From: Stenotrophomonas sp. NA06056
GTDB lineage: Bacteria > Pseudomonadota > Gammaproteobacteria > Xanthomonadales > Xanthomonadaceae
Length of the DNA stretch: 64,000 bases
Direction of reading: 5' to 3'
NCBI RefSeq assembly: GCF_013364355.1
Contig: NZ_CP054931.1
Span: 682,001 to 746,000 of the forward strand
The notes beneath the pieces are model-generated. The model worked only from the letters and a program-made list of their open reading frames with translations, searched no databases and had not been told where the DNA came from. The position numbers were made by a program, and so were the translations under genes. Shown here in pieces: positions 2,996 to 51,804 of this stretch. Positions within the stretch are counted from its first letter, which is position 1. Each line of letters begins with the position of its first letter.

Positions 2996-3056
2996 GGTTT
3001 CCCGGCCAACGGGCTGAGCCCCTCTGCGGTGGGTTCAGAAGCGGAATAGCTTGTTG

Positions 3057-3160
3057 GGCCGGGTGGGTAGGCTGTTCGGGGGACGCCGCAAGTACGTCCT
3101 TGTAGGCTTGTCAGCCGCATCCATGCGGCTGACACCCCCGCCCAGCCCACCCACCCGGCC
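3057..3160 (-). repeat. Long three-way-junction dyad, copy A
   Basis: Outer arms at 3057-3074 and 3143-3160 are complementary with one mismatch, and a GGGGG/CCCCC pair continues inward. Read on the minus strand it holds two inner hairpins: a stem GTCAGCCGC/GCGGCTGAC with hexaloop ATGGAT (3119-3124) and a stem with TAC/GTA closing hexaloop AAGGAC (3096-3101). The tail CTGACAG follows at 3162-3168. Same architecture as four further copies in this window. Confidence 0.85.
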
Positions 3161-3318
3161 TCTGACAGTTTTCTGCGGCCGCCACCGCAGGAAGAAAAAA
3201 GAAGATCAAAAGCAACAGCAACAGCCGCGTGCTGATGGTTGGGGTCGGATCCGACCCCTTCTTGTTTTCCGATACACCTCATCCACGCATGGCGTGGAGA
3301 ACCAACCGTCACCGGAAA

Positions 3319-3432
3319 TCTGTCGGGGATGGGGCGGTGTGGGTGGGCAGGACCGTTGGCGCCATGGATGGCGCCATCGAGCCCCCAAGGACGGGTTTAC
3401 GGCGTGTCCTGCCCACCCACACCGCCCCATCC
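3319..3432 (+). repeat. Long three-way-junction dyad, copy B
   Basis: Outer arms at about 3327-3353 and 3406-3432 pair perfectly over 27 bp. Hairpin 1 has stem GGCGCC/GGCGCC and loop ATGGAT (3364-3369). Hairpin 2 has CCC/GGG around loop AAGGAC (3387-3392), then GCC/GGC with a TTTAC bulge (3396-3400). The tail motif CTGTCGG is at the left end. Orientation is opposite to copy A, with the tails facing each other. Confidence 0.87.
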
Positions 3433-3499
3433 AACCAGCAGAAACCCAGAGCCGCTCTGGCTTTTGAAGTTGCAGTTGCCGTTGCTTGAGAAAAGCGGT

Positions 3500-3514
3500 G
3501 CAGCCGCAGGCTGC
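3500..3514 (-). terminator. Possible terminator of the BCCT gene
   Basis: Minus-strand hairpin GCAGCC-TGC-GGCTGC placed 10 nt after the stop codon, followed by ACCGCTTTTCTC. The U run is short and offset, so this is a weak candidate. Confidence 0.35.
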
Positions 3515-3523
3515 AAAACCCCC

Positions 3524-5101: not shown

Positions 5102-5353
5102 GAAGGAGCTTCTCCGATCAAGGGATTGAGGGGAGCGAGCGAAAGCTTGCAGGGAGTGGGCCGGCGACAGCGTGCGCATACCGGACAGGAGCCGCGATGG
5201 CGGCAGGGAAAGCACCGCTTGCAACGGTGCGGCGCGCGTGCACGTTACTGAATGCGACGTCACGGTTCTGTTAACGCGGGTGCGCTGGATCCATGCCCTG
5301 CGTGGATGAACGGCCAGGAGGCCGAGTGGTTTCTGTGCTCTAATGCGCACCAA
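5102..5353. promoter_or_regulatory. Divergent BCCT/thiC intergenic region with likely thiC promoter
   Basis: The divergent leaders of the BCCT gene and thiC. A degenerate SMAG palindrome lies at about 5289-5311. TCTAAT at 5339-5344, about 10 nt before the TPP aptamer, is a possible -10 element for thiC; no good -35 is visible. Confidence 0.4.
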
Positions 5354-5437
5354 GAAGCGGGGGTACCGCGGCCTTGTGGCCACGGTTGAGATAGTCCCTT
5401 GGAACCTGATCCGGCTCATACCGGCGTAGGGAAGCTT
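5354..5437 (+). ncRNA. TPP riboswitch (THI element)
   Basis: The conserved pieces of the thiamin pyrophosphate aptamer occur in order: GCGGGGGT (helix P1/P2 side), GGTTGAGATAGTCCC (the pyrimidine-sensing CUGAGA-type region, here UUGAGA), ACCTGATCC and the 3' block CATACCGGCGTAGGGAAGC. It ends about 105 nt before thiC, the usual target. By analogy with other proteobacterial thiC leaders, binding of TPP should block translation or promote termination. No obvious U-run terminator lies between aptamer and gene, so translational control is more likely. Confidence 0.95.
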
Positions 5438-5453
5438 TGCAATGCAACCGTAG

Positions 5454-31650: not shown

Positions 31651-31978
31651 CCTGCCTGGCCGGTCGATGCCGGCCACCGCAGGCGCAAAAAAAACAGGCC
31701 TGATCCGCGAGGATCAGGCCTGTTTCGTTTCATAGGTGCCAGCAAAGGGCTTGCTCAGGGCCCCCACAGCATGAGCTCCCTTGGGGATGGCCTCTTGGGG
31801 AGTAGGACCGGTTCGGGTACTGCGGCTGGCATCCTGAATTGTGTCCGGGTTCACAGAACATCGCTATCGGGAATTCCCTGACATGTGATTGGAGTTTTCT
31901 CACAGTGACTGTAGGGGTTCTCTTACCCCGTTGCCGACAATGGCCCTATACAGCCGTGATCAGTCACAATCCCCGGTC
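31651..31978. other. Intergenic region adk-mpl
   Basis: After the adk terminator the stretch 31731-31978 has no gene, palindrome or repeat that I can support. It probably holds the mpl promoter; no convincing -35/-10 pair is visible. Confidence 0.5.
31692..31730 (+). terminator. Rho-independent terminator of adk
   Basis: AAACAGGCCTGATCC-GCGA-GGATCAGGCCTGTTT followed by CGTTT. Confidence 0.9.
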
Positions 31979-45983: not shown

Positions 45984-46094
45984 CTGTCAGGGGTGGGGCG
46001 GTGTGGGCTTGCAGGGCCGCAGGCGCCATGGATGGCGCCTACGAGCCCCCAGGGATGGGTTTACGGCGTGTCCTGCAAGCCCACACCGCCCCGC
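45984..46094 (+). repeat. Long three-way-junction dyad, copy C
   Basis: Outer arms pair over about 24 bp (45990-46014 with 46071-46094). Hairpin 1 has stem AGGCGCC/GGCGCCT with loop ATGGAT (46028-46033). Hairpin 2 has CCC/GGG with loop AGGGAT (46051-46056) and a bulge TTTAC. Tail CTGTCAG is at the left. Confidence 0.88.
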
Positions 46095-46165
46095 CATCCC
46101 TCGGTCGCCCAGATGTTGCATTTGATGTTGATTCGGCGGGCCCCGGGCGCAGCCCGGCCGAACCT

Positions 46166-48456: not shown

Positions 48457-48646
48457 TTGCATTCTCCGCAATGTCGATGCATGCGAAACGACCTTGAACC
48501 CGGGGGCTCAAGTGGGAACGCTGGAGAACCATCGGGCTTCCCGCTGCAAGGCGGACCTGCACTCCCGGCGCTGTCGCGCTCCCGGTGTCGTTCTTAAGGG
48601 ACAAGGCGAATGTTTGCACATGCCGTCGAGTACCGCAGAGAACGCG
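48457..48646 (-). ncRNA. ssrS: 6S RNA
   Basis: About 190 nt between zapA and fau, the usual place of ssrS. On the minus strand GCGTTCTCTGCGG near the 5' end pairs with CCGCAATG…/GCGGAGAATGC at the 3' end (closing stem with G-U pairs). Inner arms such as CCTTGTCCCTTAAG and TTCAAGGTCG enclose the large internal bubble that mimics open promoter DNA. A perfect -10 box TATAAT lies 6 nt upstream (48652-48657 on the plus strand) and a terminator follows. It sequesters sigma-70 RNA polymerase in stationary phase. Exact ends are estimated. Confidence 0.85.
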
Positions 48647-51286: not shown

Positions 51287-51358
51287 GGGTTTTCGGCAGG
51301 GCTTGCAGCCCTGCACCTGCAGAGGCGACAGCCAAAGCAAGAGCGGCATTGCGTGGGA

Positions 51359-51470
51359 TGGCGGGGCGGTGTGGGTAGTCAGGACACGCCGTAAACCCAT
51401 CCATGGGGGCTCGATGGCGCCATCCATGGCGCCAACGGTCCTGCCCACCCACACCGCCCCACCTCTGACA
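51359..51470 (-). repeat. Long three-way-junction dyad, copy D
   Basis: Outer arms (51360-51375 with 51445-51461) pair with a small internal mismatch. On the minus strand hairpin 1 has stem GGCGCC and loop ATGGAT (51422-51427); hairpin 2 has CCC/GGG with loop ATGGAT (51399-51404). Tail CTGACAG at 51464-51470. Confidence 0.87.
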
Positions 51471-51491
51471 GATTCCTGCGGCTGTTGGTGG

Positions 51492-51584
51492 GTGCCGACC
51501 GTTGGTCGGCACATCTGTCAGATATCGAATGAATCATCCACGCATGGCGTGGATCTACTGGTAGGTGTCGACCTTGGTCGACAC
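51492..51584. repeat. Three small palindromes between dyads D and E
   Basis: GTGCCGACC-GTT-GGTCGGCAC at 51492-51512, an inverted SMAG at 51534-51558 and GTAG-headed GTGTCGACC-TT-GGTCGACAC at 51561-51584. Confidence 0.85.
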
Positions 51585-51653
51585 AGAGCGAGCGTAGCGA
51601 GCGACCCGCTTTTGCTTTTCTTTCTCTCTTCCGTGGTTGGACGCACACGGAAA

Positions 51654-51764
51654 CTGTCAGAGGTGGGGCGGGGTGGGTTCGCGGGGGTGTCCGCCGCATG
51701 GATGCGGCGGCCAAGCCTCCAGGGATGGATTCACGGCGTCCCCCGCGAACCCACCCCGCCCCAC
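51654..51764 (+). repeat. Long three-way-junction dyad, copy E
   Basis: Outer arms at about 51662-51687 and 51739-51764 pair perfectly over 26 bp. Hairpin 1 stem CCGCCGC/GCGGCGG, loop ATGGAT (51698-51703); hairpin 2 TCC/GGA with loop AGGGAT (51721-51726) and GCC/GGC. Tail CTGTCAG at 51654-51660. Confidence 0.89.
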
Positions 51765-51804
51765 CAAGCGCGGCTATTGCTCCAAGCAGCCAACCACGAG
51801 GGGC

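Follow-up and report, generated by a model that had tools for sequence, protein, structure and literature searches.

The window, a 64-kb stretch (positions 682001-746000) of the 4.52-Mb single-contig genome of Stenotrophomonas sp. NA06056, contains five copies of a structured repeat, four of which form two mirror-image pairs. Copy A (3056-3161, minus strand) and copy B (3327-3432, plus strand) are separated by a spacer of 165 bp (3162-3326) and have their 5' sides facing each other. Copies D (51359-51464, minus strand) and E (51661-51766, plus strand) flank a 196-bp spacer (51465-51660), and copy C (45991-46096, plus strand) is single. The five had been listed in an earlier note made from the sequence, and each was recovered at its place by a covariance model, R1, whose training copies include all five (100.1 bits for A, 122.5 for B, 113.9 for C, 115.3 for D and 114.7 for E). 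They fold far better than shuffled sequences on either strand (z -7.0 to -10.0, 0/200 shuffles each), with z values of -9.99 for A and -7.55 for D on the minus strand, and of -9.67, -7.59 and -8.50 for B, C and E. On the GGA strand all ten inner loops read ANGGAY, as the note had described: the loop of hairpin 1 is ATGGAT in all five copies (3119-3124 in A, read on the minus strand, and 3364-3369 in B), and that of hairpin 2 is AAGGAC in A and B (3096-3101, minus strand, and 3387-3392), AGGGAT in C and E and ATGGAT in D.

The 5' flank of copy A is CTGTCAGAGG (3159-3168, minus strand), and the same or a similar flank (0-1 mismatches) lies at 3320-3329 (plus), 45984-45993 (plus), 51462-51471 (minus) and 51654-51663 (plus); in the window as a whole the CTGTCAGAGG pattern with one mismatch is not enriched (16 found against 21 expected). 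The pair spacers (3161-3318 and 51471-51653) hold further palindromes, including ATCCACGCATGGCGTGGAT-type repeats, which we take to be SMAG-like, GGTCGGATCCGACC hairpins and GTCGACC..GGTCGAC repeats. A six-base repeat, (TTGCCG/TTGCTG)n, together with a hairpin GCGGGTGC..GCCC, is present between many copies and the next gene, at 3435-3520 and 51290-51358 in the window and in the 3' flanks of other copies. Rfam also places a TPP riboswitch (5349-5450, plus), an sX11 sRNA (31683-31832, minus) and a 6S RNA (48459-48644, minus) in the window.

The count for the whole genome is at least 163 copies. Model R1, trained on 47 of them, matched at least 150 places (150/150 candidates scored), and 13 more copies, one of which is interrupted (L124), adjoin these. 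A BLAST search with copy B and its flanks found about 45 other places; its 76 matches include many that hit one place on both strands. Ten further matches are weak and mostly partial (E 0.006-0.93, second-strand matches excluded): seven stand beside a single copy in mirror-image geometry, one is direct (L077) and two lie elsewhere (L095, L122). The element is a 106-nt branched fold, in which a 27-bp outer stem leads to a three-way junction with two hairpins. Hairpin 1 has 2+7 pairs and hairpin 2 has 3+3 pairs with a 5-nt bulge (TTTAC, TTCAC or CTTGC).

The earlier note had argued that the loops are kept while the stems differ with compensation, and the larger set bears this out. Of the outcomes that the note named as refuting, freely varying loops and a lack of covariation were looked for, and neither was found. 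The loops were counted in the 156 ungapped copies, the seven gapped ones being left out. They are near-invariant, and neighbouring stem columns compensate. Loop 1 is ATGGAT in 151 copies, AAGGAT in four and ATTGAT in one, which makes it ANGGAN in 155/156; loop 2, A[TGAC]GGA[TCA], is ANGGAN in 156/156. In the latter A61, G63, G64 and A65 are invariant, as is G67 beside it, and variation is confined to position 62 (T86/G48/A18/C4), where the second letter is freer than the Y of the AYGGAY type, and position 66 (T78/C75/A3). The C-G pair closing the loop is kept in 156/156 copies in hairpin 1 and in 155/156 in hairpin 2 (C60 in 155/156). An ANGGAN hexaloop closed by C-G is the signature of CsrA/RsmA sites. 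The CsrA/RsmA consensus is RUACARGGAUGU, and TAC[ANGGAN]GTA is frequent in hairpin 2 (A59-T68 in 46/156 copies and in about half of the class-wide rows described below). The two loop centres are 23 nt apart, a distance within reach of one CsrA dimer.

A palindrome scan blind to the loops gave a similar picture. Applied to 111 stretches of this genome, chosen for holding a copy, it returned 191 palindromes. The scan misses some copies that are too imperfect for it, and 151 palindromes overlap copies found by the model. Two C-ANGGAN-G sites are carried by 148 of these 151; the other 40 palindromes have no such site and look unrelated.

The compensation in the stems was quantified on a structure set by hand. 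In the 47 copies of this genome 96.7% of cells are paired, 34 of the 42 pairs have changed on both sides, and the covariation score is well above background (0.536 against 0.129 in shuffles, with slid registers also far lower). Across the class Gammaproteobacteria, in an alignment fitted to the structure (49 matches in 48 distinct rows, of which four are on the opposite strand or partial), 96.6% of cells are paired, 40 of 42 pairs have changed on both sides and the score is 0.986 against 0.197 in shuffles. Median identity of the 5' arms across the class is as low as 38%, yet pairing is kept at that level. Strict ANGGAN is found class-wide in 37/44 first and 42/44 second loops, counts that are inflated since the sample was picked with a loop-aware model; the 44 rows are the 49 less three on the opposite strand, one weak partial second copy and one duplicate. 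That these are simply repeated GC-rich palindromes whose loops resemble each other by chance or artefact is refuted by the covariation, in this genome and in the class, and by the loop counts, including those of the loop-blind scan, and, having found nothing in its favour, we attach a negligible probability to it.

The mismatches in the stems also tell which strand folds. Read on the GGA strand, pairs 5-27 of the outer stem contain 75 G.T or T.G cells against 10 A.C or C.A cells in the 156 ungapped copies. Counted by distinct contexts the figures for this genome are 48 against 10, and class-wide they are 34 against 5 (44 rows, the three outermost pairs left out). Each G.T would read A.C in the complement, so selection acts on the fold of the GGA strand, whether that strand is RNA or single-stranded DNA. 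Tandem G.A/A.G pairs occur in hairpin 1 of 43/156 copies, most others having Watson-Crick pairs there.

Close pairs in this genome are arranged in one way only. All 52 pairs of copies less than 600 bp apart in this genome, A/B and D/E among them, are minus-plus with the 5' sides facing, at distances of 123-257 bp and, in one case, 487 bp. By eye, the close pairs in three other genomes (G042, G052, G019) are likewise minus-plus in 12 of 12 cases. Head-to-tail exceptions to this geometry occur in G601 and G406. One stretch of the former (G601:C1:94417-95656) holds five head-to-tail copies in steps of 227, 229, 227 and 453 nt.

The copies lie between genes: none of the 163 reaches more than 30 nt into a gene call, the calls being those of a codon-usage gene caller, and the nearest feature is a gene 3' end for 104/163 on the 3' side and for 106/163 on the 5' side. 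Together with the very stable folds, this would suit a palindrome whose only role is at the DNA level or as a 3' hairpin that protects an end, whether as a transcription end, an mRNA stabiliser or a supercoiling site as proposed for REPs, the loops riding along in young copies. We consider this improbable. The loops are more conserved than the stems, whose 5' arms have diverged widely, and action as double-stranded DNA or on both strands would not give an excess of G.T on one strand. An intrinsic terminator in particular was rejected, as no T-run follows the window copies and the terminator-like sites near A/B are other hairpins.

The 51 pairs less than 300 bp apart lie between convergent genes in 21 cases, co-directional genes in 25 and divergent genes in five. 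Among the 61 single copies, 22 have convergent and seven divergent neighbours, and those between co-directional genes are in sense in 17 cases and in antisense in 15. The earlier note had suggested that transcripts through the repeats act as sponges or 3'-UTR control elements. This part of its proposal gains no support from the orientation of the single copies, nor from the two pair regions scanned for a sigma-70-like promoter, where none was found; moreover, each of the five window copies would be read as its CC-bearing complement by the gene whose 3' end it faces. A 3'-UTR element read in the GGA direction was rejected because the single copies show no orientation preference.

Replication offers another frame of reference. 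With an origin near 0 and a terminus near 2.0-2.15 Mb, as placed by the GC skew of the fetched stretches, the GGA strand lies on the lagging-strand template in 40 of the 59 single copies that have no neighbour within 600 bp (p 0.009, in one of several tests; 39-42/59 with other choices of terminus), against 207:189 for genes in the same stretches.

Beyond this genome, R1 was found in 32/61 genomes of the set of relatives, our own genome included, and in 65/369 genomes of the class, representing 57/271 genera, with at most 10 candidates scored per genome in the class search. In a sample of the phylum it was found in 32/398 genomes, all 32 of which belong to the same class. A pattern scan of named genomes matched 18 stretches, which belong to Methylococcaceae, Aquisalimonas and Gammaproteobacteria not named more narrowly, and also one bin labelled Klebsiella pneumoniae, which may be misbinned.

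The site of A/B could be followed within the genus. The gene beside it was matched in 36/37 genomes of the genus, 30 of them as loci, and the model recognised 26 copies at the orthologous site (38 matches, 12 of them second-strand). Both ANGGAN sites are kept in 23 of the 26, while the hairpin stems have been exchanged (CGCC, CGGC, CCGC, AAAC). In two copies a long insert splits hairpin 1 (L173, L178), and in one the GGA of hairpin 2 is changed; by eye, hairpin 1 is also interrupted in L176, L179 and L180. Several more distant genomes lack a copy here. No insertion point could be defined at this site, as close relatives carry the repeats and the sequences lacking them are too short and too remote.

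In at least one lineage the repeats are mobile, as inverted-repeat transposons. In G308 the ten scored copies lie inside units of 161 bp (349 bp in one case) with inverted ends, and all ten are bounded by target duplications of 9-11 bp, a length of 9 being reached by only 1 of 2000 random pairs. With at most two mismatches allowed, the end motif is found 309 times in G308, against 0 for a reversed-pattern control, and 10 of 12 further units (146-357 bp) also have duplications. Of the 10 copies read, 9 have a shortened hairpin 1 loop, AGGGA. No autonomous partner was found in 20 stretches around exact end matches, which held only units of 146-357 bp or ends with no partner in the stretch. By eye, the copies in G095 and G127 have other inverted ends, unlike those of G308, so that the same core sits in repeats with different ends. 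In our own genome, comparison of the flanks of the copies revealed no clear inverted ends or duplications; similarity between copies fades over about 60-110 nt on the 3' side, and the 5' side often runs into the partner copy. Several G308 units carry, in the hairpin 1 loop, 0-3 nested units of about 49 bp with a GGA hairpin of their own on the opposite strand.

A fold selected on one strand could also act during replication, when DNA is single-stranded, with the loops as a handle for a nuclease or transposase in the manner of REP/RAYT or IS200/IS605 systems; GGA would then be kept since only intact copies spread. The indifference of single copies to gene orientation and their preference for the lagging-strand template make this a serious rival, and the excess of G.T is as compatible with single-stranded DNA as with RNA. 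The mirror-image pairs resemble REP doublets, REPINs being doublets of REP sequences, and CTGTC lies within 45 nt upstream of 120/156 copies genome-wide, against 5/156 with it within 45 nt downstream. Three matches to the Y1 transposase family (PF01797) are present in this genome, and 55 of the 65 element-bearing genomes have a match, 52 of them over the cut-off.

The rival is weakened by the ten of the 65 element-bearing genomes without a Y1 match, although draft genomes may miss genes; they include G298, G375 and G406, with at least 10, 10 and 8 copies. It is weakened also by the inverted-repeat transposons of G308, which have the same core and yet leave 9-11-bp target duplications, the mark of a different, double-strand mechanism. 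In addition, the free second and sixth positions (N2 and N6) of loop 2 match the known tolerance of CsrA, and we know of no transposase with specificity for an ANGGAN loop. We judge a DNA handle less likely than not as the explanation of the loops. A RAYT-type enzyme, raised in the earlier note as the alternative, was rejected as a necessary mover because it is not required everywhere, and Y1 enzymes may act in the other genomes; the role in single-stranded DNA that it implied does agree with the lagging-strand bias.

CsrA (PF02599) is matched in 60 of the 65 element-bearing genomes and in 54 of the 55 of good quality, the exception being G255, in which no PF02599 match was found. As CsrA is probably common in the class, this shows compatibility and not association. 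Unusually many CsrA-family matches were seen in G356 (8) and G400 (7).

No Rfam family matches the window copies at gathering thresholds. Below the thresholds there are 34 matches, among which TwoAYGGAY (RF01731, clan CL00106) is the only GGA-hairpin family. The other 33 were set aside as matches to long hairpins; they are far below their own cut-offs, although some (MIR1858 and, on the other strand, Ysr224, for instance) have better E-values than TwoAYGGAY, and to our knowledge none follows a GGA-hairpin logic. Copy B scores 35.4 bits with RF01731, for which the cut-off is 43. Seven places in this genome match RF01731, all of them R1 copies, and two pass (46.1 and 45.4 bits); only 2/163 copies thus reach the cut-off. 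No match was found in 14 control genomes. Among 27 element-bearing genomes seven match and four pass with 69 candidates scored per genome, and, since our own genome passes where more candidates were scored (150), the total passing is at least 5/27.

The likeness to TwoAYGGAY extends to the architecture, with an outer stem, two A-N-GGA-Y hairpins and, in a subset, tandem GA pairs. According to the accessible text of the founding paper, TwoAYGGAY is listed for the human gut, Gammaproteobacteria and Clostridiales and graded as probably RNA and probably not cis-regulatory (PMC2864571). Gardner and Eldai propose CsrA as its binding partner and note that a stem contains tandem GAs (PMC4333381). In the available portions of these accounts there is no mention of high copy number, carriage on transposons, mirror-image pairs or a class-wide span. 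The repeats are best viewed as a branch of the TwoAYGGAY kind, much larger and mobile in at least one lineage. What is new here is the copy number, the mobility in one genome and the mirror-image pairs; a family proposed to bind CsrA was already known.

Like CsrB/CsrC, RsmX/Y/Z/V/W and RsmU, the repeats bear GGA-containing candidate CsrA sites. Those RNAs are single genes or, for RsmU, processed 3' UTRs, whereas the repeats are dispersed and without an evident promoter. According to Tang et al., Xanthomonas genomes have no significant homologue of CsrB/RsmXYZ, and RsmU may be confined to that genus (PMC7694677). With REP elements and BIMEs (PMC2817692, PMC8266576) and with REPINs and their RAYT transposases, the repeats share high copy number, intergenic palindromes, inverted doublets and possible recognition as single-stranded DNA. 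REPs are, however, palindromes of 20-40 bp, most of them tagged GTAG or CGTC, according to the accessible part of another article (PMC3733652), while the repeats fold into a branched structure of 106 nt, its two GGA loops near-invariant, and are also present in genomes without a Y1_Tnp match. In G308 they resemble bacterial MITEs in their inverted terminal repeats, 9-11-bp target duplications and 146-357-bp units, but differ in that the inner core is a conserved RNA-like structure common to repeats with other ends (by eye in G095 and G127). Among the titles and abstract openings listed by a literature search, in which subscription papers were under-represented, none presents this repeat as a CsrA-binding element; CsrA and a MITE occur together in the accessible text of one paper but are unrelated there (PMC4383904).

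The repeat is real, recurrent, structured, strand-specific, mobile in one lineage and endowed with a CsrA-type loop signature. On this basis we regard the copies, with about even confidence, as a dispersed family of mobile repeats whose conserved core is a predicted CsrA/RsmA-binding module. The reading of the loops as CsrA/RsmA-type sites, advanced in the earlier note, is consistent in sequence with the loop signature, the closing C-G, the frequent TAC[ANGGAN]GTA and the strand-specific wobble, and it agrees with the common presence of CsrA, as compatibility only, and with an Rfam relative proposed to bind CsrA. The computations show that the GGA strand folds into a long outer stem closed by a three-way junction with two C-[ANGGAN]-G hairpins, and that this core persists as compensatory changes replace the stems. 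CsrA binding, transcription and a function as a sink are what we infer. In a transcript that crosses a copy in the GGA direction, both loops might be bridged by one CsrA/RsmA dimer, and the copies could serve as scattered sinks for CsrA or, within the transcripts that include them, as segments under CsrA control. A read-through transcript entering a mirror-image pair from either side would contain one GGA-oriented copy, so that a pair could work whichever neighbouring gene is transcribed.

More tentatively, selfish repeats found across the class may carry a pre-formed putative CsrA/RsmA dimer site as cargo on unrelated transposon ends. Mobile DNA would then set the activity of a global RNA regulator or itself be tuned by it; in lineages that have neither CsrB nor RsmX/Y/Z it could take the place of the missing CsrA antagonist. 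A genome that has over 160 copies can hold more than 300 such loops. If CsrA binds them, the free level of a global regulator would depend on repeat content, linking genome expansion to post-transcriptional control. If CsrA does not bind, the conservation of the loops points to an unknown system of single-strand recognition. TwoAYGGAY was published in 2010 without a function, and its relatives in Gammaproteobacteria are suggested as the core of abundant repeats, which provide hundreds of natural variants for a direct binding test.

Two minor observations concern individual copies. The loops of the GGA hairpins are themselves insertion sites (L284-L300 in G308, and L173, L178, L181, L186 and L194), the inserts being nested hairpin units and, in L186, possibly an IS end (by eye). 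Positions 974880-975000 of our genome (L087) contain long runs of G followed by C, which may be an assembly artefact or a hypervariable tract.
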